The position numbers and the translations under genes are program-made. A stretch of 35,971 nt of DNA from Rhizobiales bacterium Ga0077556 (GTDB taxonomy: Bacteria; Pseudomonadota; Alphaproteobacteria; Rhizobiales; Phreatobacteraceae), in the NCBI GenBank assembly GCA_001464235.1, contig LNFH01000372.1, positions 1 to 35,971 of the forward strand. The letters run 5' to 3'. The notes beneath the pieces were generated by a model. It searched no databases. It was not told the DNA's origin and was given only the letters and a program-made list of their open reading frames with translations. Below are positions 9,329 to 35,971 of this stretch, piece by piece. Numbering within the stretch: the stretch's first letter is position 1; each line of letters opens with the position of its first letter.

Positions 9329-9424
9329 GGGATCCTCCGGTCGCCCGGTCGTGGACCGCAGGCGCGGCATCGGGCGTTGCGCTCAACCCTATCAGGCCGG
9401 CACGCCGGCGGAAGGCCCGACGCG

Positions 9425-18511: not shown

Positions 18512-20242
18512 TCAGGCGGGCCGGTCGCCCTTCTTCAGCTTGGCGGCGGCGCGGTTGTCGACGCCCGGCAGCATCTTGGCGGGATCGCGGGTGACCACCA
18601 CGTCGATCACCGAGGGGCCCTTGGTGGCGAAGGCTTCCTCGAGCGCCGCGCGCAGCGTCGAGGGATGCTCGACGCGGATGCCGTGGCATCCCAGCGCCTT
18701 CGCCGCATCGGCGTAGTTGGTCTCGGCGAGGTCCGAGGCGTGGTAGGCGCCAGGTCCATAGACCAGGTGCTGGAGCGCCTTCACATAGCCGGAGGCGGCG
18801 TTGTTGACGACGATGATGGTGAGGTCGAGGCCCATGCGGCGGGCCGTCTCGATCTCGCCGAGCATCATGTTGAAGCCGCCGTCGCCGGTAAGGCCGATGA
18901 CCTTCTTGCCCGGCGCGCCCATGGCGACGCCCATCGCGCCGGGAAGGCCGTAGCCGATGGAGGCGAAGCCGCGGTCCGGCACGAAGGAGCGGCCGGGCTT
19001 CTTGCTGTCGAAGAGGAGCCCGCCCCAGTGCGCGGCGAAGCCGCCGTCGGCGACGAGATAGCCGTCGGCCGGCAGCACCTGGTTGATCTCGGTCAGCAGG
19101 CGACCCATGCTCACCGGCACCTCGTCCGAGGTGAGCTTCTCGTTCACGTCGGCGCGCCACGTCGCCATGCGCTGCGGCACGTCGGCGGCATAGGCCGAGA
19201 GCCGCGCGCGGATCGCCTCGGCCTTCGGCGCGAGGGCGCTCGCGAGGTCCTCGATGCCGAGCTTCGCGTCGCCCCACAGCGTCACCTCCGGCTGCACGGT
19301 GCGGCCGAACTCCTCGGCGACGATGTCGAGGTGGATGATGCGCTTGCCCTTCGGCGGCACCGTGAAGCGCTTGGTGGCGATCTCGCCGAGCTTGCAGCCG
19401 ACGACGAGGATGAGGTCGCTCTCCTCGATCAGCGTGTTGGCGATGCGGTCGTAGCGGCCGAACAGGCCCGCCGAGAGCGGGCTGGTGCAGGCGATGGCGC
19501 CCTTGCCCGTCATGGTGTGGGCGACGGGGATGGAGAAGGTCTCGGCGAAGCGCTGCAGCGTCTCGGCGGCACCCGAGAGGTGCACGCCGCCGCCGGCGAG
19601 CACGATCGGCCGGCTGGCTTCGGCGAGAAGGGCTGCGGCCTTCGCCAGCGACGCCCCGTCCGGGCGGCAGCGCAGCGCCGGCGCGCCGCCATGGGCGGGA
19701 TCGACGCGGAAGTCGTCGTCGGTGAAGCCGTGGGTGCCGTGGCAGATGTCCTCCGGCACGTCGACGATGACCGGACCCGGCCGGCCGGTGGTGGCCACCG
19801 CGAAGGCGCGGCGCATCAGCTCGGGGATGCGGTGGATGGCCTCCACCCGGATCACCTCCTTGGCGCAGGGCCTCAGGATGTCGAGCTGGCGGCTCTCCTG
19901 GGTCATGTTCTTCCAGGAATGGTCGCGGTGCGTGTCGCCGACGATGGCGACCATCGGGGTGCCGGCGTTCAGCGCCTCGACGAGGCCGGTGACGAGGTTG
20001 GTGGCGCCGGGTCCGAGGGTGGCGTCGACCAGGCCGACGCGGCCCGTGACCTTGGCATAGGCGTCGGCGGCGAAGACGCCGGCGCGCTCGTCGTTGATGA
20101 GGTGGTGCTTGAGGCCGAGGCGGCGGGCGGCGTCGTAGAAGGGCAGGAGCTGGAAGCCGCCCATGCCGAACATCGGGCCGCCGTCGAAGGCGAGGATCAT
20201 CCGCGCCAGGGCTTCGCCGCCCGTCATCTCATTGTCGCTCAT
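18512..20242 (-). CDS. Thiamine-pyrophosphate-dependent enzyme, acetolactate synthase-like
   Basis: 576 residues from ATG 20242 (GGAGAGG upstream); the track start 35 codons earlier is in G+C-rich leader. Three-domain acetohydroxyacid-synthase fold. The N-terminal TPP domain carries the cofactor-activating Glu in NDERAGVFAADAYAKVTG. A central domain follows (about residues 200-330, GGGVHLSGAAE). The C-terminal TPP domain has the GDGGFNMMLGEIETARRMGLDL...VNN binding motif. Related enzymes decarboxylate or join 2-oxo acids. The GMGGFQLLPF start and the residues around the active site do not tell me acetolactate synthase from benzoylformate-type decarboxylase or another paralogue. It ends a catabolic gene run with a Liv-type transporter, so a catabolic lyase or decarboxylase is likelier than branched-chain amino acid synthesis. 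Confidence 0.8.
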   Translation of the reverse strand: MSDNEMTGGEALARMILAFDGGPMFGMGGFQLLPFYDAARRLGLKHHLINDERAGVFAADAYAKVTGRVGLVDATLGPGATNLVTGLVEALNAGTPMVAIVGDTHRDHSWKNMTQESRQLDILRPCAKEVIRVEAIHRIPELMRRAFAVATTGRPGPVIVDVPEDICHGTHGFTDDDFRVDPAHGGAPALRCRPDGASLAKAAALLAEASRPIVLAGGGVHLSGAAETLQRFAETFSIPVAHTMTGKGAIACTSPLSAGLFGRYDRIANTLIEESDLILVVGCKLGEIATKRFTVPPKGKRIIHLDIVAEEFGRTVQPEVTLWGDAKLGIEDLASALAPKAEAIRARLSAYAADVPQRMATWRADVNEKLTSDEVPVSMGRLLTEINQVLPADGYLVADGGFAAHWGGLLFDSKKPGRSFVPDRGFASIGYGLPGAMGVAMGAPGKKVIGLTGDGGFNMMLGEIETARRMGLDLTIIVVNNAASGYVKALQHLVYGPGAYHASDLAETNYADAAKALGCHGIRVEHPSTLRAALEEAFATKGPSVIDVVVTRDPAKMLPGVDNRAAAKLKKGDRPA

Positions 20243-20473
20243 CACGCCTCTCCACCCGCGGCTCCCGGCCGCTTGTTGGGGGCGAGCGAGGGTCGGGGCG
20301 CCGGCGCTTGGCGCGCCGCCGCCGTCCGGGCTCCCTCCCCGCCCCATTCAGGCGCCGTTGGCCGGCGCCTTTCCGCTTGGGCGCCACGGTTAGGGAGGGC
20401 CCGCAGGGCTGTCAACGCAGGCGAAAGGCAGGCCAGCAATGCCGGCCCGCCCCCGTGATAACGGCGCTCCCGC
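20243..20473. other. Gap between the amidohydrolase-like and TPP-enzyme genes
   Basis: 231 bp, very G+C-rich, with several overlapping imperfect palindromes built on GGCGCC. One, at 20350-20370, is followed by TTT on the plus strand, which is the wrong direction for the flanking minus-strand genes. I found no ORF or clear promoter. A local promoter or attenuation site for the TPP enzyme is possible. Confidence 0.5.
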
Positions 20474-21301
20474 TCACTCCGTCTCGTGGGCCTTCGACCA
20501 GGCTTCCGCCACCTCGGCGCCGGTCGCGAACCACACGCCGGGGAAGGTGCGGATGAAGGCGATGAGCTCGCGGATCAGCGCGATGCGGCTCGGACGTCCC
20601 CCCACCTGCGGGTGGAAGATCATGTCGAACAGGCCGCCCCACTTGTAGATCTCGCGGAACTCCTCCTTGTAGACGCTCAGCATGTGCTCGTTGGTGAAGA
20701 TCGGCCGCGGCGTCTTCACCGAGAACAGGGCGAAGGGCGCGTCGTCCAGCGACCAGTGCCAGGGCAACTCGATGACGCCCTTGGAGCCGTCCGGCATGAT
20801 GTGCCGGTAGGGGTTGATGTCGTCCATCAGCGAGGAATCGTAGAGGAAGTTGTGCTGCTTCAGGAGCTTGAACAGCCCTTCCGAGACTTCGCCGGCCGGC
20901 GAGCGGTAGCCCTTCGGCACCACGCCGACGGTGCGCTTCAGCGCCTCGAGCCCCTTCTCCATCTCCTCGACTTCCGCCTGGGGATCGTCGCTCACCCACT
21001 TGTGGGAATAGGAGTGGTGGGCGACCTCGTGGCCGTCCTTGAGGATCATCTCGACGCGGTCGGTGTGGTTCTCCGCGGTCCAGCCGGGCACGAAGAAGGT
21101 CGACTTGATCCCCTCGTCGCGCAGCGTGTCGAGAATCTTCGGCACGCCCACCTTGGCGCCGTAGCGGCCCTGGCTCAGCACGCCGGGGCGGCGGACGTTC
21201 TCCGGATCGCGCGAGGTCCACAGGGTCTCGGCGTCGAAGTCGAAGGTCAGCATCACGGCGCAGCGGGCGCCGTTCGGCCATTTGACGCTCATGTCGTGCA
21301 T
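20474..21301 (-). CDS. NodB-fold amidohydrolase (PuuE / PgdA / cyclic-imidase-like)
   Basis: 275 residues from ATG 21301 (GGGAG eight bases upstream). The start MLTFDFDAETLWTSRDPEN contains the metal-binding Asp of the polysaccharide deacetylase fold, and HEVAHHSYSH holds the two metal-binding histidines. Later segments (DSSLMDDINPY, PWHWSLDDAP, DMIFHPQVGGRPSR) match my memory of the cytoplasmic subgroup with PuuE allantoinase, the cyclic imide hydrolase of Pseudomonas putida and Helicobacter PgdA. There is no signal peptide, so it should act in the cytosol. In a transporter/dehydrogenase operon this favours hydrolysis of a cyclic amide or imide over cell-wall deacetylation. The exact substrate is not readable. 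Confidence 0.8.
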   Translation of the reverse strand: MHDMSVKWPNGARCAVMLTFDFDAETLWTSRDPENVRRPGVLSQGRYGAKVGVPKILDTLRDEGIKSTFFVPGWTAENHTDRVEMILKDGHEVAHHSYSHKWVSDDPQAEVEEMEKGLEALKRTVGVVPKGYRSPAGEVSEGLFKLLKQHNFLYDSSLMDDINPYRHIMPDGSKGVIELPWHWSLDDAPFALFSVKTPRPIFTNEHMLSVYKEEFREIYKWGGLFDMIFHPQVGGRPSRIALIRELIAFIRTFPGVWFATGAEVAEAWSKAHETE

Positions 21302-22074
21302 CGTCTCGTCTCCCTTGGATCAGGTTCTAGATCTTGCCGTGCCGGGCCGCGAGGAAGCCGCCGTCCACCGGCAGGACGGCGCCCGTGACGAAGGCGGCAT
21401 CCTCGGAGCAGAGGAAGGCCACCGGCCCCGCGATGTCGGCCGGGGTTCCCATCCGCTCCACCGGCGTGCCCTCGACGATGAGGCGGGTGTAGAGGGCGTT
21501 CTGCCGGTGGCCCGTGGTCATCGGCGTCGCGATGAGGCCGGGCGCCACCGCGTTGATCAGGATGCCCTCGGGCGCGAGCTCGCCGGCGAGCTGGCGGGTG
21601 AACTGGGCGACGCCGGCCTTCGCCACCGCATAGGCCGTGGTGCCGGGATAGCCGGTGATGCCGAAGATCGAGGAGATGTTGACGATGCGCCCGCCCGGCC
21701 GCGGCAGGTGCGGCACGACGGCCCGCGTGACGCGCAGCACGGCGGCAAGGTTCGTGTCGAGGAAGCGGTCGATGAGGGCGTCGTCGCTCTCCATCAGCCG
21801 CTTCGAGCCGCCGATGCCGGCATTGTTGACGAGGATGTCGATGCGGCCGAAGGCATCGAGGGCCGCCTTCGCCATGACCTCGCCGGCGTCGCGGTCGGTG
21901 ACGCTCTTGATGAGCGCGGTCTGGCCGAGGCGGGCGGCGGTCTCGGCCACCTCCGGGATGACGTCGACCAGGACAACCTTCGCGCCCTCGGCGGCGAAGC
22001 GCTCGGCAATGCCCTCGCCGATGCCGCGGGCGGCGCCCGAGACGATGGCGACCTTGCCCGCGAAGCGTGTCGGA

Positions 22075-22851
<777 letters not shown>

Positions 22852-22897: not shown

Positions 22898-23614
22898 TCA
22901 GTGCTCCTGCCCGCCGAGATAGAACTCCTGGAGCTCTTCCATGGCGATGCCGTCGCCCACCTCGCGCTCGTAGGCGATGCGCCCGCCGCGGATGACGTAG
23001 ATGTGGTCGGCGATGTCGAGGGCCATGCCGACGTTCTGCTCGACGAGCAGCAGGGTCAGGCCGAGGTCCCTGAGGCCGAGGATCGCCTCGGCGATCTCCT
23101 CGACAATGCGCGGGGCGAGCGCCGCGGAGGGCTCGTCGAGCAGCAGCACCGAGGGGCGCGCCATCAGCGAGCGGCCGATGGAGAGCATCTGCCGCTCGCC
23201 GCCGGAGAGCATGCCGGCATTGACCTTGCGGCGCTCCTTGAGGCGCGGAAACCGCTGGTAGACGCCCTCGAGGTCGGAGGCGATGCCCTGCCGGTCGCGG
23301 CGGCGGTGATAGGCGCCCATGAGGAGGTTTTCCTCGACGCTCATGCCGGCGAAGACCTCCTTGCCCTGCGGCACGAGGGAGAGGCCGAGCGACGCGCGCT
23401 GTTCGGCCGGAACGTCGTTGATCACCTTGCCGTCGAGAACGACCTGGCCCTCCTGCACGGCGACGAGGCCGACGATGGCCTTGAGCGTGGTCGACTTGCC
23501 CGTGCCGTTGCCGCCGAGCAGGGCGACGAGGCCGCCCTTCGGCACCTCGAGGCTCACCCCGTGCAGGATGCGGGTGCGGCCGTAGCCGGCGACGATGCTG
23601 TCAACCTTGAGCAC
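22898..23614 (-). CDS. livF: Branched-chain-type ABC transporter ATP-binding protein LivF
   Basis: 238 residues. Walker A GGNGTGKSTT, ABC signature LSGGERQMLSIGRSLM, Walker B VLLLDEPSAALAP and a switch His region at VEQN. The size and the opening LKVDSIVAGYGRTRILHGVSLEV are those of LivF. It is the second ATPase of a HAAT-family importer. Its start lies within the end of livG (14-bp overlap). This family carries branched-chain amino acids but also many aromatic acids, amides and ureas, so the label does not fix the substrate. Confidence 0.93.
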   Translation of the reverse strand: MLKVDSIVAGYGRTRILHGVSLEVPKGGLVALLGGNGTGKSTTLKAIVGLVAVQEGQVVLDGKVINDVPAEQRASLGLSLVPQGKEVFAGMSVEENLLMGAYHRRRDRQGIASDLEGVYQRFPRLKERRKVNAGMLSGGERQMLSIGRSLMARPSVLLLDEPSAALAPRIVEEIAEAILGLRDLGLTLLLVEQNVGMALDIADHIYVIRGGRIAYEREVGDGIAMEELQEFYLGGQEH

Positions 23615-24389
23615 GGCGCTTCCACCCGGTTCCGATATAGGCCTCGATCACGACGGGATCCTTCACCACGGCGTCCGGCGCGCCCTCGGCGATCTTCACG
23701 CCCGAATCCAGCACGACGACGTGGTCGCAGAGGTCGCGCACGACGCGCATGACGTGCTCGACGAGGAGGATCGACACGCCGAACTCGTCGCGCAGCCGGC
23801 GCACCAGCTGGATGAGCTTGTCGACGTTGGGCGGCGACAGGCCGGCGGCGGGCTCGTCGAGCACGAAGAGGCTCGGCTCGCTCATCATGCCGCGGGCGAT
23901 CTCGACCATGCGCTGCTGGCCGATGGAGAGCGCCGAGACGGGCCGGTCCGCGAAATCCTGGAGGTCGAACCAGGCGAGAAGCTCGCGCGCGCGGGCCCGC
24001 GCCCTCTGCTCCTCCTCCCGCGCCGAACTGCGGCCGAAGATGGATGCGGCGATGCTGGCCTTCATCCGCATGTGGTTGGCGAGCAGCAGGTTGTCCTCGA
24101 CGCTCAGCGAATGGAACAGGCGCAGCAGCTGGAACGAGCGCGCCATGCCGAGCCGCGCCCGCCGGTGGGAGGGAAGGCTGGTGATGTCGGTGCCGTTGAA
24201 GAGGAAGGTCCCCTCGTTCGGCATCAGCTCGCCGGACACCAGGTTGACCATGGTCGACTTGCCCGAGCCGTTCGGGCCGATCAGCCCGACGATCTGGCCC
24301 TTGCCCACCGTGAGGCTGGCGTCGTTGACGGCGACGACGCCGCCGAACCGCTTGGTGATGCCGCGGGCTTCCAGGATGGGGGCGGTCAT
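23601..24389 (-). CDS. livG: Branched-chain-type ABC transporter ATP-binding protein LivG
   Basis: 262 residues. Walker A GPNGSGKSTMVN, signature LSIGQQRMVEIARGMM, Walker B LFVLDEPAAGL and a C-terminal KDPVVIEAYIGTG-like end that is typical for LivG. It pairs with LivF to power uptake through LivH and LivM. ATGA-type overlap with livM upstream. The first helix RGITKRFGGVVAVNDAS is the usual LivG opening. Confidence 0.93.
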   Translation of the reverse strand: MTAPILEARGITKRFGGVVAVNDASLTVGKGQIVGLIGPNGSGKSTMVNLVSGELMPNEGTFLFNGTDITSLPSHRRARLGMARSFQLLRLFHSLSVEDNLLLANHMRMKASIAASIFGRSSAREEEQRARARARELLAWFDLQDFADRPVSALSIGQQRMVEIARGMMSEPSLFVLDEPAAGLSPPNVDKLIQLVRRLRDEFGVSILLVEHVMRVVRDLCDHVVVLDSGVKIAEGAPDAVVKDPVVIEAYIGTGWKRRAQG

Positions 24390-25321
24390 CGCGCCGCCCT
24401 CGCGCGCAGGCGCCCGACGACGCCTTCCGGCATCAGCGTGACGACGAGCACCAGCAGCACGCCGTAGATCAGCATCTTGTACTCGGCGAACTTGCCGAGG
24501 AGCTCGGGCAGGATGGCGAGGAACACCGCGCCGAGGATCGGCCCGATGAAGGTGCCGCGGCCGCCGACCACCATCATCGCCACCACGGTGGCCGAGATCC
24601 AGATCGTGTAGTCGTCGGGCGTCACGCCGCGCAGGGAATGGGCGGTCAGCACGCCGGCGACGCCGGCCAGCGCCGCATAGGCGACGAAGGCGGTGAGCTT
24701 GCCACGGGTGGTGTCGAGGCCGACCGCGCTCGCCAGGGTCTCGTCATCGCGGATCGCCACCCATTCGCGGCCGAGGCGCGAGTTCACCAGGCGCCACGAG
24801 ATGAGAAGGGTCAGCGCCGTCATGGCCAGGGTCAGCCAGTAATAGGAGCGCAGCGAGCCGAACTCGAACAGCGTCACGCCGAACACCGTCACCGGGCCGG
24901 CATTGGGCATGGGCAGGCCGACCTGCCCGCCGGTGAACGAGGTCCACTGCGAGATGACGAGATAGACGATGGTCTGGAAGGCGATGGTGACGATGGCGAG
25001 GAAATGGCCCTTCAGCCTCAGGGCGGGAATGCCGAGCAGGAGGCCGAACAGGCCGGCGACGATGGCGCCCGCCGGCAGGTGGACCCAGATCGTCGTGTTG
25101 AAGTCGCGGGTCATGATCGCCGCGGTATAGGCCCCGATGCCGTAGAAGGCGCCGGTGGCGAAGGAGAACTGGCCGCAATAGCCGGTGACGAGGTCGAGGC
25201 CCACCGCCAGGATGACGAAGAACAGCACCATCATCAGCACGTTGGTCTCGTAACCGCCGATGCCGAAGGGCGCGACGGCGAGCCCCGCGAAGGCGAGGAG
25301 CGCGATGAGATAGACCCTCAT
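24386..25321 (-). CDS. livM: Branched-chain-type ABC transporter permease LivM
   Basis: 311 residues with about eight to ten membrane segments and the LivM signature around GLDLVTGYCGQFSFATGAFYGIGAY and GRGTFIGPILGA. The EAA-like cytoplasmic loop (SRLGREWVAIRDDETLASAVGLD) contacts the ATPases. Start ATG 25321 overlaps the end of livH by four bases. It is one of two permeases of the importer. Confidence 0.93.
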   Translation of the reverse strand: MRVYLIALLAFAGLAVAPFGIGGYETNVLMMVLFFVILAVGLDLVTGYCGQFSFATGAFYGIGAYTAAIMTRDFNTTIWVHLPAGAIVAGLFGLLLGIPALRLKGHFLAIVTIAFQTIVYLVISQWTSFTGGQVGLPMPNAGPVTVFGVTLFEFGSLRSYYWLTLAMTALTLLISWRLVNSRLGREWVAIRDDETLASAVGLDTTRGKLTAFVAYAALAGVAGVLTAHSLRGVTPDDYTIWISATVVAMMVVGGRGTFIGPILGAVFLAILPELLGKFAEYKMLIYGVLLVLVVTLMPEGVVGRLRARAAR

Positions 25322-26208
25322 GACCGCTCCACTGCCTTGCCGAACAGGCCCTGCGGGCGGAACAGCAGCACGAGGATGACGAAGACGAAGCCGACCACGT
25401 CGCGCATCGCGTTGGAGATGTAGGCGGAGGTGAGGGATTCCGTGATGCCGAGGAGGAGGCCGGCGACCGCCGCACCAGCGACATTGCCCATGCCGCCGAG
25501 GATGACCACCGTGAAGGCCTTCAGCGCGATCATGTTGCCGACGATGGGATAGACGAAGAAGACCGAGGACATCAGCATGCCGGCGGTTCCCGCCAGCGCC
25601 GCCCCGGTGATGAAGGTGACGATCGCCACCCGCTCCACCCGGACGCCGCAGAGGCGCGCCACGGTGGCGTGCTGGGCCATGGCGCGCAGGCCGCGGCCGG
25701 TCCAGGTGTAGCGCAGCACGACGTAGAGGATGGCGATGAGCAGCACCGTCGCGATCGGGATCAAGAGCCGCTGCTGCGGCAGGAAGACCGGGCCGAAGTC
25801 GGTCGGCAGCGACGACAGCACCGGGATCTTCGAGACGTCGAGGTTGAGCCGCTGCGGCTGCGGACCCATCACCACCAGCGCCGCGTTCTGCAGCGCCACC
25901 GCGAGCCCGAACGAGGAGATGATCGAGCTCGTGGCGTCGTGGTTCTTCATGGGCTTGTGCAGGATCGCCTCGGCGGCGATGCCCACCACCGCCGCCACCA
26001 GAAGGACGAAGGCGATGGCGGGCAGGACGGGAAGCTTGAGCACCGTGATGGCGACGATCCCGGCATAGCCGCCGATCATGTAGAACTCGCCATGGGCGAA
26101 GTTCACCACGCCGAGGATGCCGAAGATCAGCGTCAGGCCGACGGCGACGAGCACGTATGTGCTGCCGATGACGACGCCGTTGGCCATGTATTGCAGGAAG
26201 AGATCCAT
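25318..26208 (-). CDS. livH: Branched-chain-type ABC transporter permease LivH
   Basis: 296 residues from ATG 26208 (MDLFLQYMANGVVIGSTYVLVAVG); the track's GTG three codons earlier (26217) is an alternative. The protein has eight or so hydrophobic segments. Motifs include LIFGILGVVNFAHGEFYMIGGY, the loop GRGLRAMAQHATVARLCGV and GGMGNVAGA near the C-terminus, all standard for LivH. The gene is 20 bp from the substrate-binding protein gene and overlaps livM. Confidence 0.92.
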   Translation of the reverse strand: MDLFLQYMANGVVIGSTYVLVAVGLTLIFGILGVVNFAHGEFYMIGGYAGIVAITVLKLPVLPAIAFVLLVAAVVGIAAEAILHKPMKNHDATSSIISSFGLAVALQNAALVVMGPQPQRLNLDVSKIPVLSSLPTDFGPVFLPQQRLLIPIATVLLIAILYVVLRYTWTGRGLRAMAQHATVARLCGVRVERVAIVTFITGAALAGTAGMLMSSVFFVYPIVGNMIALKAFTVVILGGMGNVAGAAVAGLLLGITESLTSAYISNAMRDVVGFVFVILVLLFRPQGLFGKAVERS

Positions 26209-26228
26209 CGCGATCACGACACCCGGCG

Positions 26229-27380
26229 TCAGACGTCGAGGCGCCGCTTGCCGTCCTTCACCACGGCGATGAAGTTGGGGAAGTCGACGCTGCCCTTGGC
26301 GTTGAAGGCGGCCGTGGTGCCGGCGGGGCCCTGCACCAGCTGGAAGTCCTTCATGCCGCCCTTGAGCATCTTCTGGATCTCCAGGCCGTCAGGCTTGCCG
26401 ACGCGCCGCAGCGCCTCGATGCCGATGGTCATGGATTCGAAGCCGAGGGCGGAGAGCGTGTTGGCGTCGAGGTTGTGCCGGGCGCGGAACCGCTCGCCGA
26501 AGGCCTTGCCCACCGGGTTCGGCGTCGAGGGCTCGTAGAGGCTGGCGACGGCGAAGCCTTCCGAGGCCGGGCCGGCGAGGCGGATGAAGTCGTCCGAGTT
26601 CATCGAGCCGGAGCCGACGAACTGGGTGCGGATGCCCGCCTCGACCGCCTGGCGGACGATGTTGGCGCCGTCGCCCGCCCAGCCGCCGATATAGACCGCC
26701 TCGGGGCGCAGCGAGCGCAGCTTGGTGAGCATGGAGGAGAAGTCCTGCTCGCCGGCGTTGTAGCTGTCGGTGGAGAGGATGGTGCCGCCGACGCCGCTCA
26801 CCACGCGCGTCACCTGGGCGGCGAGCGTCACGCCGTAATTGGTGTTGTCGTGGATGATGGCGACACGGGTCTTCTTGAACTTCTCGACGATGGCGCGGGC
26901 GGTGTCGTCGCCCTGGGCGTTGCTGTCCGGCCAGGAGCGGAAGAACCAGGGATCGCCAGGGGTGTTCTGGTCGGTGGCGCCGGCGGCGGTCGATCCGCCC
27001 GAGAGCATCGCGACCTTGTATTCGGCGGCGATCTTCGAGGCGGCGATCGCCACGGCCGAGGCATAGGTGCCGACGATGAAGGGCGACTTCTCACGCTCGA
27101 TCAGGCGGCGCACGGCGGTGACGCCCTTCGTCGAGTTGCTCTCGTCGTCTTCCATGACGAGTTCGATCCGGCGGCCGAGCACGCCGCCCTTGGCGTTGGC
27201 CTCCTCGATCGCGAACTGGACGCCGGAGAGGATCTGGCGCCCCTCGATGCTGGCGGGGCCGGAGAGCGGGAGCATGCCACCAAGCCTGATCGGATCCGAG
27301 GACTGGGCGCGCAGGACGGACGGAGCGGCGACGCTCGCGCCCATGACGGCCAGCATGTGACGGCGGGAGAACTGCGTCAT
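26229..27380 (-). CDS. ABC transporter substrate-binding protein (Liv/HAAT type), Tat-like signal
   Basis: 383 residues from ATG 27380, with AGGAGG eight bases upstream. This is the first gene of the transporter operon; the 736-codon track ORF is a read-through of the noncoding region and a shadow of iclR. The N-terminus MTQFSRRHMLAVMGASVAAPSVLRAQ has an RR pair followed by a hydrophobic core, so Tat or Sec export is plausible. The mature part begins IRLGGMLPLSGPASIEGRQ and continues as a type I periplasmic binding fold (NAKGGVLGRRIELVMEDDES, GTYASAVAIAASKIA). A CGTATCG...AATAC motif lies 21 bp upstream of the ATG. The ligand is unknown; related proteins in soil alphaproteobacteria bind aromatic acids as well as amino acids. 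Confidence 0.92.
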   Translation of the reverse strand: MTQFSRRHMLAVMGASVAAPSVLRAQSSDPIRLGGMLPLSGPASIEGRQILSGVQFAIEEANAKGGVLGRRIELVMEDDESNSTKGVTAVRRLIEREKSPFIVGTYASAVAIAASKIAAEYKVAMLSGGSTAAGATDQNTPGDPWFFRSWPDSNAQGDDTARAIVEKFKKTRVAIIHDNTNYGVTLAAQVTRVVSGVGGTILSTDSYNAGEQDFSSMLTKLRSLRPEAVYIGGWAGDGANIVRQAVEAGIRTQFVGSGSMNSDDFIRLAGPASEGFAVASLYEPSTPNPVGKAFGERFRARHNLDANTLSALGFESMTIGIEALRRVGKPDGLEIQKMLKGGMKDFQLVQGPAGTTAAFNAKGSVDFPNFIAVVKDGKRRLDV

Positions 27381-27568: not shown

Positions 27569-28345
27569 TCAGGTGCTCAGGGCACGCGCGGCCTCGATGG
27601 CCAGCGGCGAGAAGCGCCGGCGGAAATCCGGGATGGCCCACTCGCTGAGCGAGCCCGCCACGTGGACGGCGCCGATGGGCCGCCGGTCGCCGTCGAGCAC
27701 GGCCGCTGCCAGCACCACCTCGCCGATCAGCGCCTCTTCCGCCGCCCAGGAATAGCCCTCGGTCCGCGCCTCGCGCACCTTCTCCCAGATCTCCGGCAGG
27801 CCGGTGCGCGACTTCGGCGTCAGCGGCCGGCGGTCGGAGCGGGCGAGGAGATCGTCCACCGCCGCATCCGCCATCTGCGCCATGCAGGCGCGCCCGCCCG
27901 AGGACAGGAAGGTCGGGATCCGCCGCCCCGGGAGGGTCGCGTAGAAGGTTTCGCGCTTGCTCTGCAGGCGGATGGCGTAGATCGTCGAGGTGTCGTCGAA
28001 GAGGCTGAGGTCGACGCGCTCGCCGGCGAGCTTGCGCAGTTCCATCAGCACCGGCGTCGCCCGCTCGATCAGCGGGTTGGAGCGCAGGTAGTCGAAGGAC
28101 CGGTCGAGCAGGCGGCGCCCGAGCATGAGCCCGCCGCTGTCGGCCCGCTCCAGATAGCCGCGCGCCAGAAGCGTCTGACCGATCCGCTGGGCCGCGCTCT
28201 TGTTGATGCCCGTCGCCGCCGCGATCTCGCCGAGCGATTTCGGCCGCGGGCTCTGGGCGAAGGCCTCGAGCACGTCGAGGGCACGGGCGACCGATTGCAG
28301 GAACAGGCGCTCGTCGACGGCGGTCACGCCGGCTGTCTTGGTCAT
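27569..28345 (-). CDS. IclR-family transcriptional regulator
   Basis: 258 residues from ATG 28345 (MTKTAGVTAVDERLFLQSV); the track start at 28519 would overlap a predicted operator and read through noncoding DNA. The N-terminal winged helix-turn-helix spans about residues 15-75 (SLGEIAAATGINKSAAQRIGQTLLARGYLERA). The C-terminal effector domain (FLSSGGRACMAQM, GYSWAAEEALIGEVVLAAAVLD, GAVHVAGSLSEWAI) follows to about 250. IclR proteins often govern breakdown of aromatic or carboxylic acids and often regulate themselves. It lies between the transporter operon and the P450 genes, and a matching DNA motif is found upstream of all three, so it is the likely controller. The activating ligand is unknown. 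Confidence 0.93.
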   Translation of the reverse strand: MTKTAGVTAVDERLFLQSVARALDVLEAFAQSPRPKSLGEIAAATGINKSAAQRIGQTLLARGYLERADSGGLMLGRRLLDRSFDYLRSNPLIERATPVLMELRKLAGERVDLSLFDDTSTIYAIRLQSKRETFYATLPGRRIPTFLSSGGRACMAQMADAAVDDLLARSDRRPLTPKSRTGLPEIWEKVREARTEGYSWAAEEALIGEVVLAAAVLDGDRRPIGAVHVAGSLSEWAIPDFRRRFSPLAIEAARALST

Positions 28346-28490
28346 CGTCGTCGCCGGACGGGCCTCGACGGCCCTCCCCCCTTGGTGCGATCCGTCCTCG
28401 CCGCGCCGCGGCTGTCGCCGGGCCCCGCGGGGGATGCATGGTTCACGTCCGCGACTGCTATGACCGCAGCACCGGTAAATTGCAACACGA

Positions 28491-28511
28491 GCGTATCGGC
28501 GCCCAATACTT
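28491..28511. promoter_or_regulatory. Predicted IclR operator, autoregulation copy
   Basis: CGTATCGGCGCCCAATAC lies between the ferredoxin reductase stop and the IclR ATG, about 146 bp upstream of the latter. It shares CGTATCG-N-C-N4-AATAC and the exact spacing with the other two copies. Confidence 0.6.
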
Positions 28512-28520
28512 GGGTGCACC

Positions 28521-29777
28521 TCAAGCCTGCACCTTCACCCCCGCTGCCAGCGCCTTGAGATCGAAGCCGGCGGCCTCGGCCTCGCCGTAGGTCGGTGGGG
28601 CGGGCAGGGCGAGGATGCGCCGCGCCAGCATGTTGTCGCCCGGACGGTTCACCGATTCCACGCCGATGAGCTGGCCCGCCCGGAAGGCGATGAGGGAAAA
28701 GCGGGCCGCATCGCGGTCACCGATGGCCACCTGGGCATCGAAGCCCGTGGTCAGCCCGGCCATCTGCAGTTTGAGGTCGCCCTGGTCGGACCAGAACCAC
28801 GGCACCGCGTGATAGGGCTGCGGCTTGCCGGCGATCCGCGCCGCGACGACGCGGCCCTGGTCGATGGCGTTCTGCACCGATTCCAGCCGCATGCGGCCGC
28901 CGGCGAAGGGATTGGGATGGTTGCAGCAGTCGCCGATGGCCGAGACGGCGGGATCGGCCGTCTGCAGGAGCGCATCGACGACGATGCCGTTGTCGACCGC
29001 GAGCCCGGCCTCGGCCGCGATCTCCGCATTGGCGATGCCGCCGATGCCGACGAGCACGAGGTCGGCGGGCAGCGTCTCGCCGCCGGCCAGCGCAACGCCG
29101 GTCACGCGCCCGGCCGGGCCGACGATGCCCTCCACCGCCGCGCCGAAGCGGAACTGCACGCCGGCGATCTCGTGCCGTTCGCGGAAGAAGGCGGAGATGG
29201 CCGGCGTCACCGCCCGCGCCATGACCCTGTCGGCCGCCTCGACCACATGGACCTGCTTGCCGCGCTTGGCGGCAACGGCGGCGAATTCGAGCCCGATGAA
29301 CCCGGCGCCGATCACCACCACGTCGCCCGCCGCCTCGAGCAGGGCACCGAGCGCCCGGGCGTCGGCGAGGGTGCGCAGGGTCGCGACACCGGCCAGTTCG
29401 CCACCTTGGCCTGTCCACGACCTGACGCGCGAGCCCGTGGCGATCACCAGATGCTCGTAGCCGCAGGAGCGGCCATCGGCGAGATGGACGCGGCGGGCGG
29501 CGCGCTCGATGCGTGTCGCCGCGACGCCTGCCGCGAGGCGGATGTCGGTCTTGTCGAGCATCGCCTGCGGCCGGAGCACCAGGGCGTCCTCCGTCACGGC
29601 GCCCAGCAGGAAGCCTTTCGACAGCGGCGGGCGCTGGTAGGGCAGGACCGCCTCGTCGCCGATCATCTGGATGGTGCCGGCAAAGCCTTCCTCGCGCAGC
29701 GACAACGCCGCCTGCAGGCCCGCCTGCCCTGCCCCGAGGATCACGACGTCGGCTTGGGGTGCGAGGGACTGGGTCAT
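28521..29777 (-). CDS. NAD(P)H-dependent ferredoxin reductase (P450 electron transfer)
   Basis: 418 residues from ATG 29777; a GTG three codons earlier is also possible. Two Rossmann motifs are visible: the FAD one VVILGAGQAGLQAALSL near the N-terminus and the NAD(P) one VVVIGAGFIGLEFAAV near residue 150. The second FAD contact VSAIGDCCN and the segment VPWFWSDQGDLKLQMAG, with LIGVESVNRPGDNMLARR near the C-terminus, are typical of the putidaredoxin reductase family. It passes electrons from NADH to the [2Fe-2S] ferredoxin encoded just upstream. The gene is the third of a P450-ferredoxin-reductase operon and so completes a class I P450 system. Confidence 0.92.
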   Translation of the reverse strand: MTQSLAPQADVVILGAGQAGLQAALSLREEGFAGTIQMIGDEAVLPYQRPPLSKGFLLGAVTEDALVLRPQAMLDKTDIRLAAGVAATRIERAARRVHLADGRSCGYEHLVIATGSRVRSWTGQGGELAGVATLRTLADARALGALLEAAGDVVVIGAGFIGLEFAAVAAKRGKQVHVVEAADRVMARAVTPAISAFFRERHEIAGVQFRFGAAVEGIVGPAGRVTGVALAGGETLPADLVLVGIGGIANAEIAAEAGLAVDNGIVVDALLQTADPAVSAIGDCCNHPNPFAGGRMRLESVQNAIDQGRVVAARIAGKPQPYHAVPWFWSDQGDLKLQMAGLTTGFDAQVAIGDRDAARFSLIAFRAGQLIGVESVNRPGDNMLARRILALPAPPTYGEAEAAGFDLKALAAGVKVQA

Positions 29778-29815
29778 GGCATTCACACGGGGTCTGGGCT
29801 GACGCCCCGGCGGCG

Positions 29816-30139
29816 TCAGATCTGCGCGTCCGGCACCGTTACCACGAGCCCATCCAGCGCGTCAGTAAGGACAATCTGGCAGGACAGCCGCGACGTCGCC
29901 CGCCGCTCGCTGGCCGTCGCGTCGAGCATCTCGTCCTCGGCCGGGCTCACCGGCGGGAGTCCCGCGGCGAAGGCCGGGTCGACATAGACGTGGCAGGTGG
30001 CGCAGGCGAGCGAGCCGCCGCACTCGCCGAGGACGCCCGGCACCTGGGCCCGCACCGCCGCCAGCATGAGGCTGACGCCGGCCGCGGCGTCGATGGTGGC
30101 AGGCCGTCCGCGCGGATCGAGGAAGGTGACGCGCGGCAT
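29816..30139 (-). CDS. [2Fe-2S] ferredoxin of the P450 system (adrenodoxin/putidaredoxin type)
   Basis: 107 residues. The cluster ligands are Cys40, Cys46, Cys49 (ECGGSLACATCHVYV) and Cys87 (RLSCQI), the arrangement of vertebrate-type ferredoxins. It begins one base after the P450 stop and ends 38 bp before the reductase start. It most likely carries electrons from the reductase to the P450. Acidic residues (EDEML, DALDG) sit where partner proteins dock in the family. Confidence 0.93.
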   Translation of the reverse strand: MPRVTFLDPRGRPATIDAAAGVSLMLAAVRAQVPGVLGECGGSLACATCHVYVDPAFAAGLPPVSPAEDEMLDATASERRATSRLSCQIVLTDALDGLVVTVPDAQI

Positions 30140-30140
30140 G

Positions 30141-31364
30141 TCAGGCCGCGGTCACGACGAGCGGCAGCGTCTTCAGGCTGCGCAGGTTGTTGTTGAGGGT
30201 GCGGGTCGGCGAGCCCGCCAGCGCCAGGGTCTTGACCTGGGCGACCATGGCCTTCAGCACCGCCTCGCCCTCGAGCCTGGCGATCATCTGGCCGATGCAC
30301 ATGTGGACGCCCGTGCCGAGGGCGAGGTGGCCCATGGTCTGGCGCGTCACGTCGAAGGCGTCCGGCCGCTCCCACTGGTCGGGGTCGCGGTTGGCCGCGC
30401 CCAGCATGACGAGGATCTTCGAATCGTTCGGCACCGTCACGCCGTCGATCACCACCTCGCGCGTGGTCTGGCGGCAGACGTTCTGGATCGGCGTCTCCAG
30501 CCGCATCGCCTCGTCGAGGGCGGGGCGGATGCGCGAAGGATCCTCCCGCAGCAGCGCCCATTGCGACGGGTCCATCGCGAGATACCAGAGCGCCGCCGAG
30601 ATCATGCTCGACGTGGTGTCGAGGCCGCCGCGCAGGAAGGAGCGCACCAGCAGCGGCGCCGTCTCCTGGTCGATCTCGCCGCGGTCGGCGGCCTGGAAGA
30701 TCTTCTCGCCGAAGCCGCCGGGCACCATGGCCTCGCGCTTCATGCTGTCCAGGTACCAGTCCCAGATGGCATCGGCCTTGCGCTGGGTCTCCTCGAAGCG
30801 GGCGTTCTTCGGCCCCTGGCCATCGAAGTTGAGCGCGCCGAGGAGGAAGAGGTTATCGCGGCGCTCGGGCGAATTGGCGAGGCCGAGCGCCTCCGGGAAG
30901 GTGGTGGAGACATAGGTCTCCGCGAGGTCGTGGACGCCGCAGAAGGCGCCCTTCTCGACGAGTTCGGCCACCAGCCGCTCCGCCTCCTTCTCGAAATCCT
31001 CGCGCCACTGGCGGATGACGGCGGGGGAGAGGATGCGCTGCAGAACGGTCCGCACATGGGTATGCTGCGGCGGGTCCACCTCGACGATGGGGCTCGGCGC
31101 GCGCCAGGCTCCGGGCTTGCGGATGTCGGCGAGGCCCGAGCCGCCGGTCGAGGAAAAGGTCTCCCAGTCCTTCAGCACCGGCATGATGTCCCGGTGCCGG
31201 CCCATGGCGTGGACGCCGTTGCGCGACAGGAAGACGACGGGGCCGGCGGCCCGGACGGCGGCGTGCATGGCGCCGGGCGCGTCCAGCGCCGCGTCCGAAT
31301 AGGGGTCGACGTCGATGACGGGCGCGGAGAGACCCTCGGACGGATGCAGGGCGGCGTCGGGCAT
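30141..31364 (-). CDS. Cytochrome P450, CYP199-like
   Basis: 407 residues from ATG 31364 (GGAG seven bases upstream). P450 landmarks: I-helix GGLDTT at 246-251, the ExxR pair in DEAMRLE, and the heme loop LGTGVHMCIG with Cys356. The usual Phe seven residues before the Cys is Leu349. Overall the sequence resembles, from memory, CYP199A4 of Rhodopseudomonas, which O-demethylates 4-methoxybenzoate. Residues lining up with its carboxylate-binding Arg92, Ser95, Arg243 and Ser244 are kept here (Arg88, Ser91 in WRAPS; Arg241, Ser242 in LVRSF), while Ser247 is Arg245. This suggests an acidic, perhaps para-substituted aromatic, substrate. It heads an operon with its ferredoxin and reductase. The identity and substrate remain an inference from my recall of the family. 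Confidence 0.9.
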   Translation of the reverse strand: MPDAALHPSEGLSAPVIDVDPYSDAALDAPGAMHAAVRAAGPVVFLSRNGVHAMGRHRDIMPVLKDWETFSSTGGSGLADIRKPGAWRAPSPIVEVDPPQHTHVRTVLQRILSPAVIRQWREDFEKEAERLVAELVEKGAFCGVHDLAETYVSTTFPEALGLANSPERRDNLFLLGALNFDGQGPKNARFEETQRKADAIWDWYLDSMKREAMVPGGFGEKIFQAADRGEIDQETAPLLVRSFLRGGLDTTSSMISAALWYLAMDPSQWALLREDPSRIRPALDEAMRLETPIQNVCRQTTREVVIDGVTVPNDSKILVMLGAANRDPDQWERPDAFDVTRQTMGHLALGTGVHMCIGQMIARLEGEAVLKAMVAQVKTLALAGSPTRTLNNNLRSLKTLPLVVTAA

Positions 31365-31602: not shown

Positions 31603-32853
31603 ATGCGCTATTCCGTCTTTTCGCTGCTCGGCCAGGCCCTCGCCGGCAATACCGGCTGGAAGCCGGCCTGGCGCGACGCCGCGCCGCAGCCCCGCTACGA
31701 CGTGATCGTGGTCGGCGGCGGCGGCCACGGACTGGCGACGGCCTACTACCTCGCCCGCACCCACGGCATCGCCAACGTCGCCGTGCTGGAGCGCGGCTGG
31801 ATCGGCGGCGGCAATGTCGGCCGCAACACCACCATCGTCCGCTCCAACTACCTGCTGCCCGGCAACATCCCGCTCTACGAGCTGTCCATGCAGCTGTGGG
31901 AGGGGCTCGAGCAGGACATCAACTACAACGCCATGGTCAGCCAGCGCGGCGTCCTGAACCTCTACCATTCCGACGGCCAGCGCGACGCCTATGCCCGCCG
32001 CGGCAACGCCATGCGCCTGCACGGCATCGACGCCGAACTCCTCGACCGGGAGGGCGTGCGCCGCCTCTACCCCTTCCTCAACTTCGACCAGGCGCGCTTT
32101 CCCATCCAGGGCGGCCTGCTGCAGCGCCGCGGCGGCACGGTGCGCCACGACGCGGTGGCCTGGGGCTATGCGCGCGCGGCCAGCGACCGCGGGGTCGACA
32201 TCGTCCAGAACTGCGCCGTCACCGGCTTCCTGCGCGAGGGCGGCCGCATCACCGGCGTCGAGACCACCCGCGGGACCATCCGCGCGCCCAAGGTCGCCCT
32301 GGCGGTGGCCGGCAGCTCCTCGCAGGTGGCGGCCATGGCGGGGCTGCGCCTGCCCATCGAGAGCCACGTGCTGCAGGCCTTCGTCTCCGAGGGGCTGAAG
32401 CCGATCATCCCCGGCGTCATCACCTTCGGCGCCGGCCATTTCTACATCAGCCAGTCCGACAAGGGCGGCCTCGTCTTCGGCGGCGACATCGACGGCTACA
32501 ATTCCTACGCCCAGCGCGGCAACCTCCCCGTCGTCGAGGACGTCTGCGAGGGCGGCATGGCCCTGATGCCCGCCATCGGCCGGGCGCGGATGCTGCGCAG
32601 CTGGGGCGGCATCATGGACATGTCGATGGACGGCTCGCCGATCATCGACCGGACGCCCCTCGACGGCCTCTACCTCAACGCCGGCTGGTGCTATGGCGGC
32701 TTCAAGGCGACGCCGGGATCCGGAGCCGTCTTCGCCCATCTCATCGCCCGCGACGAACCCCACCCCGCCGCGACCGCCCTCACCCTCGGCCGCTTCGCGG
32801 CGGGCCGGGTCGTCGACGAGAAGGGCCAGGGCGCCCAACCGAACCTGCACTGA
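31603..32853 (+). CDS. soxB: Sarcosine oxidase beta subunit-like flavoprotein
   Basis: 416 residues from ATG 31603 (MRYSVFSLLGQALAGNTGW, the usual SoxB opening); the longer track ORF is a 5' extension. The FAD motif VIVVGGGGHGLATAYYLA is present. RGGTVRHDAVAWGYAR contains the His that anchors FMN covalently in heterotetrameric sarcosine oxidases. The C-terminus (LNAGWCYGGFKATPGSG, AGRVVDEKGQG) fits the family. SoxB catalyses oxidative demethylation of sarcosine or another N-methyl amine. It is followed by soxD after six bases and then soxA. The operon lies divergent from the P450 genes. Confidence 0.92.
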   Translation: MRYSVFSLLGQALAGNTGWKPAWRDAAPQPRYDVIVVGGGGHGLATAYYLARTHGIANVAVLERGWIGGGNVGRNTTIVRSNYLLPGNIPLYELSMQLWEGLEQDINYNAMVSQRGVLNLYHSDGQRDAYARRGNAMRLHGIDAELLDREGVRRLYPFLNFDQARFPIQGGLLQRRGGTVRHDAVAWGYARAASDRGVDIVQNCAVTGFLREGGRITGVETTRGTIRAPKVALAVAGSSSQVAAMAGLRLPIESHVLQAFVSEGLKPIIPGVITFGAGHFYISQSDKGGLVFGGDIDGYNSYAQRGNLPVVEDVCEGGMALMPAIGRARMLRSWGGIMDMSMDGSPIIDRTPLDGLYLNAGWCYGGFKATPGSGAVFAHLIARDEPHPAATALTLGRFAAGRVVDEKGQGAQPNLH

Positions 32854-32859
32854 GGACCG

Positions 32860-33117
32860 ATGCGCATTCCCTGCCCCTATTGCGGCCCGCGCGACAGTTC
32901 CGAGTTCGCCTATCTCGGTGACGCCGCCCCGCGCCGGCCGGCCGACGGCGATGCCGAAGCCATGGCGACCTACGTCTATCTGCGCGACAACCCGGCAGGT
33001 CCGATGGACGAGCTCTGGTACCACGCCCAGGGCTGCCGCTCCTGGCTGGTCGTCTCCCGCGACACGCGCGACCACGCCGTCTCGGGCGCCCGCCTCGCCG
33101 CCGGAGCCTCCGCATGA
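32860..33117 (+). CDS. soxD: Sarcosine oxidase delta subunit
   Basis: 85 residues. CPYCGPRDSSEF with the CxxC pair, an Arg/Asp-rich middle (YVYLRDNPAGPMDELWYHAQGC) and a final Trp-Leu-Val are characteristic of SoxD, the small zinc-binding subunit. It sits between soxB and soxA. Its stop overlaps the soxA start (ATGA), so translation is coupled. Confidence 0.93.
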   Translation: MRIPCPYCGPRDSSEFAYLGDAAPRRPADGDAEAMATYVYLRDNPAGPMDELWYHAQGCRSWLVVSRDTRDHAVSGARLAAGASA

Positions 33118-35971
33118 GCGTCAACCGCCTCGCCTCGGGGGGCCTCGTCGACCGCGAGACGCCCATCGGCTTCACCTTCGACGGCCGCCCGCTCACCGGC
33201 CTTGCCGGCGACACGCTGGCCTCGGCGCTGGTCGCCAACGGCATCCGCCTGGTCGGCCGCTCCTTCAAGTACCATCGCCCCCGCGGCATCGTCTCCGCCG
33301 GCCCGGAGGAGCCGAACGCCCTGGTCGAGAAGGGCCGCGGCGCCTATCGCGAGCCCAACACCCGTGCCACCACCATCGAGCTCCATCCGGGTCTCGACGT
33401 CGCCAGCCAGAACCGCTGGCCCTCGCTGCGCTTCGACATCCAGGCGCTGGGCCAGCTGGCCTCGCCCCTGCTCGCCGCCGGTTTCTACTACAAGACCTTC
33501 ATGTGGCCGGCGGCCCTCTGGGAGAAGCTTTACGAGCCCGCCATCCGCCGCGCGGCGGGCCTCGGCCGCCTCTCCGGCGCGCCCGACCCGGACACCTATG
33601 ACAAGGCCTATGCCTTCTGCGACCTGCTGGTGGTCGGCGCGGGCCCTGCCGGCCTCGCCGCCGCCCTCACCGCCGGCCGCGCCGGCGCGCGCGTCATACT
33701 GCTCGAGCAGGACTTCGCGCTCGGCGGCCGGCTCCTGAGCGACGATCTCGAGATCGACGGCATGCCGGGCCCCGTCTGGGTCCGCGAGGCAGAGGCCGAG
33801 CTTGCCGCGCTGCCCAACGTGCGCATCCTCACCCGCACCGCCGCCTTCGGTCTCTATGACGGCGAGATCGGCGCGGTCGAGCGCCTGACCGACCACCTCG
33901 CGGTCGCCCCCGCCGGCATGCCGCGCCAGCGCCTCTGGACGATCGTCCCCGCCCGCACGGTCCTCGCCGCCGGCGCCCTCGAACGCCCGATCGTCTTCGG
34001 GGGCAACGACCGGCCGGGCGTCATGCTCGCCTCGGCCATGCGCACCTATGTCCGGCGCTTCGCCGCGCTTCCCGGCCGGCAGGTCGCGGTCTTCACCACC
34101 ACCGACGACGGCTGGCGCACGGCCGCCGCCTTCGCCGGCGCCGGAGCCCCGGTCGCGGCGGTGATCGACGCACGCCGCGAGGTGGCGCCGACGGTGCGGG
34201 CGCTGGCCGGCGACGCGCCCGTCTATCTCGGCGCCCGTGTCCTCGATGCGGTGGGCGGCCAGGCCCTCACCGGCATCGAGGTGATCGGCGACCATGGCCG
34301 CCGCCGCATCGCCGTGGACGGGCTCGCCGTCTCCGGCGGCTTCAATCCCGACGTCGCCATCGCCACCCATCTCGGCCACAAGCCGCGCTGGGCCGACGAC
34401 ATCGCCGCCTTCGTCATGGATGATATGCCGGCTAACGTCTCCGTCGCCGGTGCTGCCGCCGGCCGCTTCACGCTCGCCGAGGCCCTCGCCGACGGCGCCC
34501 GTCGCGGCGCCGAGGCGGCCCGGGCCGTCGGCCGCGCGACGATCGATCAGCCGACATGGCGTGCCGGCGACGAGACCTTCGCCGTCTCGCCGCTGTTCCA
34601 CGTCGAGGGCGGCCGCGGCAAGGCCTTCGTCGACCTGCAGAACGACGTCACCGACAAGGACGTCGCCCAGTCCGTGCGCGAGGGCTTCGTCTCGGTCGAG
34701 CACCTGAAGCGCTACACGACGCTCGGCATGGCCACCGACCAGGGCCGCACCTCCAGCGTCAACGGCCTCGCCATCCTCGCCAGCCTCACCGGCCGCAGCA
34801 TTCCCGAGACCGGCTCGACCCGCGCCCGGCCGCCCCACGGCCCCGTCGCCATCGGCGCCTTCGCCGGCCTCCACACCGGCACCCATTTCAAGCCGACCCG
34901 CCTCACCGCCTCCCACGGCTGGGCGAAGGAGCAGGGCGCCGTCTTCGTCGAGACGGGCCAATGGCTGCGCGCCCAGTGGTTCCCGCGCCCGGGCGAGACC
35001 GACTGGCTTCAGAGCGTCACCCGGGAGGTCCAGGCCGTGCGCTCGGGCGTCGGCATCTGCGACGTCTCCACCCTCGGCAAGATCGCGCTCGCCGGCCCCG
35101 ACGTCGGGACCTTCCTCGACCGGGTCTATTGCAACACCTTCTCGACGCTTCCCGTCGGCAAGGCGCGCTACGGCCTCATGCTGCGCGAGGACGGCTTCGT
35201 CATGGACGACGGCACCACGGCGCGGCTCCGCGAGGACGAATGGGTCCTCTCCACCACGACGGTGAATGCCGGCAAGGTCATGCAGCACCTCGCCTTCTGC
35301 CACCAGGTGCTGTGGCCCGAGCTCGACGTGCAGATGGTGTCGGTCACCGAGCAATGGGCCCAGTTCGCCGTCGCCGGCCCCCGCTCCCGCGACCTGCTGC
35401 AGCGGCTCTTCGGGGCGGGCACCGACCTGTCGAACGCGGCCTTCCCCTATCTCGCCTGCCGCAGCTTGCCCCTCGGCCCGACGACGGCGCGGCTCTTCCG
35501 CCTCTCCTTCTCGGGCGAGCTCGCCTACGAGATCGCCGTGCCCGCCGGCTATGGCGACGCCCTCGTCCGCGCCCTGATGGAGGCCGGTCGCGACCTCGGC
35601 GTCACGCCCTACGGCACGGAGGCGCTCGCCGTCATGCGGGTCGAGAAGGGCCATGTCGCCGGCGCCGAGCTCAACGGCCAGACCGTCGCCCGCGACCTCG
35701 GTCTCGGCCGCATGATGTCGAAGAAGAAGGACTATGTCGGCCGCCTCATGGCGGAGCGCGAGGCGCTGAACGATCCCGCGCGCCCGACCCTCGTCGGCCT
35801 GAAGCCGACGGTGGCGGGCGTGCGGCTGCGCGCCGGCGCCCATTTCCTTCCCCTCGGCGCCGCCGCCACGGCGGAGAACGACCAGGGTTACATGACCTCG
35901 ACCGCCTTCAGCCCCACCCTCGGCCACTGGATCGGCCTCGGCCTGCTCGCCAACGGCCCGCAGCGCCTGGG
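33114..35971 (+). CDS. soxA: Sarcosine oxidase alpha subunit, C-terminus cut by window edge
   Basis: Not in the ORF track because it has no stop in the window; I read 952 codons. The start is ATG 33114, overlapping soxD. From the N-terminus it has a ferredoxin-like fold without cluster cysteines (FTFDGRPLTGLAGDTLASAL), then a Rossmann FAD/NAD domain with VVGAGPAGLAAALTAGRAGA. Past residue 600 there is a T-protein (aminomethyltransferase) domain (HFKPTRLTASHGWAKEQGAVF, VRSGVGICDVSTLGKIAL, DYVGRLMAEREAL). This is the folate-using half that can take the methyl carbon as 5,10-methylene-THF. Full SoxA is about 1000 residues, so only the end is missing. soxG would normally follow outside the window. 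The exact amine is unknown; sarcosine or a related N-methyl compound is expected. Confidence 0.93.
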   Translation, partial: MSVNRLASGGLVDRETPIGFTFDGRPLTGLAGDTLASALVANGIRLVGRSFKYHRPRGIVSAGPEEPNALVEKGRGAYREPNTRATTIELHPGLDVASQNRWPSLRFDIQALGQLASPLLAAGFYYKTFMWPAALWEKLYEPAIRRAAGLGRLSGAPDPDTYDKAYAFCDLLVVGAGPAGLAAALTAGRAGARVILLEQDFALGGRLLSDDLEIDGMPGPVWVREAEAELAALPNVRILTRTAAFGLYDGEIGAVERLTDHLAVAPAGMPRQRLWTIVPARTVLAAGALERPIVFGGNDRPGVMLASAMRTYVRRFAALPGRQVAVFTTTDDGWRTAAAFAGAGAPVAAVIDARREVAPTVRALAGDAPVYLGARVLDAVGGQALTGIEVIGDHGRRRIAVDGLAVSGGFNPDVAIATHLGHKPRWADDIAAFVMDDMPANVSVAGAAAGRFTLAEALADGARRGAEAARAVGRATIDQPTWRAGDETFAVSPLFHVEGGRGKAFVDLQNDVTDKDVAQSVREGFVSVEHLKRYTTLGMATDQGRTSSVNGLAILASLTGRSIPETGSTRARPPHGPVAIGAFAGLHTGTHFKPTRLTASHGWAKEQGAVFVETGQWLRAQWFPRPGETDWLQSVTREVQAVRSGVGICDVSTLGKIALAGPDVGTFLDRVYCNTFSTLPVGKARYGLMLREDGFVMDDGTTARLREDEWVLSTTTVNAGKVMQHLAFCHQVLWPELDVQMVSVTEQWAQFAVAGPRSRDLLQRLFGAGTDLSNAAFPYLACRSLPLGPTTARLFRLSFSGELAYEIAVPAGYGDALVRALMEAGRDLGVTPYGTEALAVMRVEKGHVAGAELNGQTVARDLGLGRMMSKKKDYVGRLMAEREALNDPARPTLVGLKPTVAGVRLRAGAHFLPLGAAATAENDQGYMTSTAFSPTLGHWIGLGLLANGPQRL

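Follow-up and report, generated by a model that had tools for sequence, protein, structure and literature searches.

A CYP199-related cytochrome P450 with a heme-loop leucine and an altered pocket, encoded in a conserved proteobacterial gene cluster

RESULTS

The P450 gene and its neighborhood

The window, meaning the whole 35,971-nucleotide stretch of DNA analyzed here, encodes a 407-residue protein with a single P450 domain (Pfam PF00067). The preliminary description of this DNA had placed the gene correctly, and we add that it is read from the minus strand (Table 1). In the translated protein the heme loop reads LGTGVHMCIG from residue 349 (Leu349), and R88, S91, R241, S242, and R245 are found at the positions given previously. 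Cys356 is the heme thiolate, and Asp249/Thr250 form the acid-alcohol pair. Residues G350, G352, H354, C356, G358, E285, and R288 are invariant in the alignment, and the protein thus has both the GxGxHxCxG loop and the ExxR motif of the P450 superfamily. The predicted fold has a pLDDT of 82.7; this heme-free model was built from 16 sequences, and residues 351 to 355 are of low confidence. The gene encodes a genuine bacterial cytochrome P450 that is a distant relative of the benzoate-oxidizing CYP199A enzymes.

Table 1. Features of the window in and around the P450 gene cluster
Feature	Position	Strand	Length	Remarks
Sarcosine oxidase operon soxB-soxD-soxA	31603-35971	plus		divergent from P450; linkage not kept outside Phreatobacter
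Cytochrome P450	31364..30141	minus	407 aa	ORF and Pfam PF00067
[2Fe-2S] ferredoxin (Fer2)	29816..30139	minus	107 aa	ORF and Pfam; one base past the P450 stop
Ferredoxin reductase (Pyr_redox_2 and Reductase_C)	28521..29786	minus	421 aa	Pfam
IclR-family regulator	27569..28519	minus		resembles PcaR/PcaU/PobR but falls under the cut-off of that model
Liv-type ABC transporter substrate-binding protein	26229..27377	minus
LivH-like permease	25318..26217	minus
LivM-like permease	24386..25321	minus
LivG-like ATPase	23601..24389	minus
LivF-like ATPase	22898..23614	minus
SDR oxidoreductase 1 (SDR1)	22075..22851	minus		kept in the cluster of relatives
SDR oxidoreductase 2 (SDR2)	21327..22109	minus		kept in the cluster of relatives
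PuuE/HpPgdA-type hydrolase	20474..21301	minus		annotated polysaccharide deacetylase; candidate cyclic imidase
TPP enzyme (acetolactate-synthase family)	18512..20347	minus		uncertain cluster member
Isochorismatase-family hydrolase	16566-17231	minus		near the cluster; closest to biuret amidohydrolase; also in genome G019
Open reading frame	14955-16538	minus	527 aa	without a Pfam hit at 1e-8; related Phreatobacter have it at 95-97% identity

The Fer2 ferredoxin is the probable electron donor to the P450, and the two genes also adjoin in Bosea, Microvirga, Bordetella, and Ochrobactrum. The pairing is not obligatory, because in some Phreatobacter clusters the ferredoxin gene has apparently decayed to fragments (L032, at ~9222-9400, L033, and L034) beside an intact P450 and reductase. 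Loci L036 and L037 have no ferredoxin gene between these two.

Relationship to CYP199

Over ~395 aligned residues, the P450 is 42% identical to CYP199A2 and 41% identical to CYP199A4. These two enzymes and PbdA are its nearest solved structures by both sequence and fold, and CYP199A structures ranked top in a fold search with the P450 model. Conventional P450 nomenclature sets ~55% identity for a subfamily and ~40% for a family, and naming requires the committee. At 41-42%, the protein falls outside subfamily CYP199A and sits at the border of family CYP199, in a comparison confined to CYP families represented in the PDB. Its earlier designation as CYP199-like is a fair placement, given the solved relatives, as long as it is not taken to mean subfamily A or secure membership of the family. 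The best reading is a class I (ferredoxin-dependent) P450 whose new subfamily lies either within CYP199 or immediately beyond it.

Carboxylate anchor and substrate pocket

Alignment with CYP199A2 and CYP199A4, the check proposed in the preliminary description, paired R88 with R92, S91 with S95, R241 with R243, and S242 with S244, after allowing for PDB chain indices that equal the literature numbers plus 1. The CYP199A-type anchor, made up of Arg92, Ser95, Ser244, and a water held by Arg243, is thus matched in full. In PbdA, Arg84, Ser87, and Ser237 contact the substrate carboxylate directly, while Arg236 holds the water (PMC11530827). The same alignment set R245 opposite S247, bearing out the reported serine-to-arginine change. 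A literature search returned nothing usable on S247 mutants of CYP199A4.

In PbdA and CYP199A4, the residues listed as forming the hydrophobic cage (PMC11530827) are Phe182, Phe185, Phe298, Ala248, Leu98, and Thr252. Only Phe182 and Thr252 are retained in the P450, as F180 and T250; F185 is replaced by Q183, F298 by V296, L98 by V94, and A248 by G246. With the anchor kept, most of the aromatic cage replaced, and Arg245 at the Ser247 site, the alignment upholds the earlier claim of an altered pocket. It suggests a pocket that is smaller and more polar than that for benzoate.

Variation at heme-loop position 349

A DNA pattern for the heme loop was searched in 130 genomes of the order. Phe was present in 77 of the loops retrieved, Leu in 7, and Tyr in 1; the pattern also requires other loop residues and reads Leu through CTN codons only, so that it samples P450s and is no full count. 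Five of the seven Leu loops belong to the clade described below, and the other two are in genomes G032 and G038. Among 64 CYP199-like sequences, the position holds Phe, Tyr (10 rows), Met (2 rows; L064 and L066), or an independently acquired Leu (L065). Leu is therefore rare at this site, yet the site is not rigid: the statement that nearly all P450s carry Phe here holds insofar as Leu is unusual in the order but is too strong for the close kin. Most of the Tyr rows are CYP199A-like P450s from a single genus, probably Bradyrhizobium, with the loop YGSGIHMC (L017, L023, L025, L027, L028, L029, L031, L055, and L056).

A clade with Leu349 and Arg245

Leu349 and Arg245 occur together in 24 of 24 distinct orthologue and paralogue sequences, which indicates that the heme-loop Leu is not there by chance. 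These sequences, from Phreatobacter (12 of the 12 genomes examined), Bosea, Microvirga, Bordetella, Ochrobactrum, Oceanicella, and Pinisolibacter, form one monophyletic group (support, 100/99) that spans the alpha- and betaproteobacteria with identities down to 58%. Leu349 is a fixed trait of this lineage. The cage changes are near-uniform across it, the exception being the second Bordetella paralogue, in which residue 94 is Gly and residue 296 is Ala. In Bordetella (L040, L041, and L042; ~5.0-9.2 kb), two Leu349-type paralogues flank SDR2 and the hydrolase, with one such cluster in each of the three genomes.

The sister lineage (support, 100/100) is a pair of P450s from Paraburkholderia sp. 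SG-MS1 (L048) and Variovorax paradoxus plasmid CP063167.1 (L086), at 45-47% identity. Both share with the clade the carboxylate set, Pro84, and the clade-fixed W120, N179, R189, and R245, but they have Phe in the heme loop and Ala, not Gly, at 246. The clade-fixed columns that differ from the sister are Q183, G246, and S256. Because the sister lineage has Arg245 with Phe, the pocket Arg probably arose before the heme-loop Leu, an order that hinges on the root of a midpoint-rooted tree. The Paraburkholderia sister genome has no match to the hydrolase at an E value of 1e-40, and no hydrolase is annotated near the Variovorax sister P450.

Conservation of the cluster

In all clade genomes with a contig of sufficient length, the hydrolase gene lies close to the P450 (in Ochrobactrum, on the same-numbered contig), a neighborhood found in Phreatobacter, Bosea, further Rhizobiales, Microvirga, Bordetella, Oceanicella, Pinisolibacter, and Ochrobactrum. 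In Bosea sp. BH3, the hydrolase match (G1097:C1:435474-436295) was reported with one internal TAG stop. In most clade genomes the pair is accompanied by the Liv importer and SDR1, and almost always by SDR2 as well. The importer is absent between the IclR gene and SDR1 in four Phreatobacter clusters (L032 to L035), and the Oceanicella cluster has SDR1 plus only a weak second SDR match. An IclR gene is usual but was not observed in all regions, that of G065 being one example without it. Bosea-like clusters contain a penicillin acylase, those of Bordetella and Pinisolibacter contain an amidase, and the Microvirga cluster has GABA transaminase and succinate-semialdehyde dehydrogenase next to it.

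The TPP enzyme adjoins the cluster in no genomes but that of the window and its close Phreatobacter relatives. A core step like that of cyclohexane-1,2-dione hydrolase was considered for it and rejected, as the cluster regions of G065, G227, and G279 do not contain it.

Plasmids of Roseomonas, Agrobacterium, and Sulfitobacter carry the module without the P450. Because such relatives exist, the P450 step is separable from the rest. Loci L089, L090, and L091 are plasmid SDR/hydrolase modules of this P450-free kind, and two of them include an amidase or penicillin acylase.

The neighboring hydrolase

The hydrolase model (pLDDT, 76.6) matched three structures over its full length: 3rxz (TMq, 0.84), HpPgdA (3qbu; 0.78), and the PuuE allantoinase (3cl6; 0.76). 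Most CE4 deacetylases gave TMq values of only ~0.5-0.57, which places the protein in the PuuE/HpPgdA subgroup. Literal polysaccharide deacetylase activity was rejected as its likely role because both fold and sequence point to this subgroup instead. A relationship between HpPgdA and cyclic imidases has been described; one fungal enzyme of that group, HxnM, cleaves the ring of a cyclic imide that a dehydrogenase supplies (PMC9304392). By analogy, the hydrolase is a candidate cyclic imidase, in a family that includes members of unknown specificity.

DISCUSSION

On the basis of alignment and gene linkage, we infer the following substrate class and order of reactions. The P450 would grip a small carboxylate in the manner of CYP199A, through Arg88, Ser91, Ser242, and a water held by Arg241. 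Arg245 and Gln183, standing in place of the aromatic cage, would favor a smaller and more polar molecule, possibly a dicarboxylate or an acid bearing a lactam or imide. The imported acid would be hydroxylated by the P450, the resulting alcohol or alcohols would be oxidized by the two SDRs, and the PuuE/HpPgdA-type hydrolase would then open a cyclic imide or similar amide; in many relatives, an amidase or penicillin acylase would cleave the amide that remains. An imide or lactam is proposed mainly because the hydrolase matches the HpPgdA group, to which the cyclic imidase HxnM belongs. We assign a probability of about 0.5 to the reading that this CYP199-related subfamily hydroxylates a small polar carboxylate for an SDR/cyclic-imidase pathway, with Leu349 as a lineage trait and the heme potential raised. 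The more specific proposal, that the Phe-to-Leu change and the added pocket Arg define the oxidation of a polar cyclic-amide carboxylate in a new alpha- and betaproteobacterial pathway of this kind, is a tentative one that we regard as less likely than not.

The benzoic acids that the preliminary description had in view would fit a P450 that is a divergent demethylase or hydroxylase of para-substituted benzoates, like CYP199A4 or PbdA, with a neutral heme-loop change. The fully conserved carboxylate set, the nearest solved structures, the retention of Phe182 as F180, and the resemblance of the neighboring IclR regulator to PcaR/PcaU/PobR all speak for such an enzyme, but its aromatic cage is mostly replaced, and a charged Arg245 stands at the Ser247 site. 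Its conserved partners are SDRs, a cyclic-amide-type hydrolase, and amidases, and no genes for an aromatic-ring pathway, whether protocatechuate, catechol, or PobA-type, are among the annotated genes from 11.8 to 36.0 kb of the window. The conserved neighbors point to the breakdown of small acidic amide-type compounds, not benzoates, and we consider benzoate an unlikely substrate. Much less probable still is a role in the N- or O-demethylation of a methylated amino acid, in conjunction with the sarcosine oxidase operon. The soxB, soxD, and soxA genes diverge from the P450 gene no more than 300 bp from its start, an arrangement repeated in other Phreatobacter, but the P450 occurs without adjacent sox genes in Bosea, Microvirga, Bordetella, Ochrobactrum, Oceanicella, Pinisolibacter, and several Phreatobacter, where the SDR and hydrolase genes persist. 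Sarcosine oxidase was rejected as a core partner because its adjacency to the P450 is limited to the window genome and certain Phreatobacter.

The role of Leu349 can be weighed against P450 BM3, where F393A and F393H raise the heme potential, speed the first electron, and lower turnover, while F393Y is neutral (PMC9820634). This agrees with the earlier remark that the heme-loop Phe tunes the potential. The position is equivalent, but BM3 is a distant, self-sufficient P450 and its variants are laboratory mutants to Ala, His, Tyr, and Trp, whereas the Leu here is natural. By this analogy, it is plausible that Leu349 alters the heme potential; the potential would be somewhat raised, so that the first electron would arrive faster and the oxy-ferrous state would react less readily. 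Neutral drift at a tolerant site, without adaptive redox tuning, falls only a little short of even odds and is compatible with either a polar carboxylate or a benzoate as substrate. The presence of Phe, Tyr, Met, and Leu at the site in the CYP199-like set and the neutrality of the Tyr variant of BM3 favor drift; the retention of Leu in every member of a clade that reaches across two proteobacterial classes, and the shifts caused by the nonaromatic BM3 substitutions, weigh against it.

The P450 has in common with CYP199A2 and CYP199A4 of Rhodopseudomonas and PbdA of Rhodococcus jostii the fold, the Arg/Ser/Arg/Ser anchor, the Asp-Thr pair, and the Phe182 equivalent, and its ferredoxin-type electron supply is like that of the Rhodopseudomonas enzymes. 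It differs from CYP199A2 and CYP199A4 in its gene cluster, in the heme-loop Phe-to-Leu change, and in the Ser247-to-Arg change. Chemical precedent for the later steps comes from the nicotinate pathway of Aspergillus nidulans, in which the polyol-type dehydrogenase HxnW is followed by the HpPgdA-related cyclic imidase HxnM and then the amide hydrolase HxnN, the order proposed here (PMC9304392); that pathway is fungal, has no P450 at that step, and acts on a hydroxypiperidine-dione. A paper on lumichrome was the sole usable result of a literature search for a P450/cyclic-imide cluster. In that Nocardioides simplex pathway, P450 oxidation by LumU precedes amide hydrolases and a TPP enzyme, a set of enzymes like that encoded in the window. 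This riboflavin/lumichrome route, prompted by the TPP enzyme, was discarded on two grounds: LumU is a self-sufficient P450 fusion, and neither an SDR pair nor a deacetylase-type hydrolase is named in the accessible part of the account.

The conserved cluster may represent a catabolic route for which our literature search found no description and which is present in every Phreatobacter genome examined. Carboxylate recognition and lignin O-demethylation are both studied with CYP199A enzymes as models. A naturally occurring relative in which the anchor is kept but both cage and heme loop are rebuilt would allow the joint evolution of pocket and heme potential to be tested, and the Phe-bearing sister lineage would serve as a natural control.
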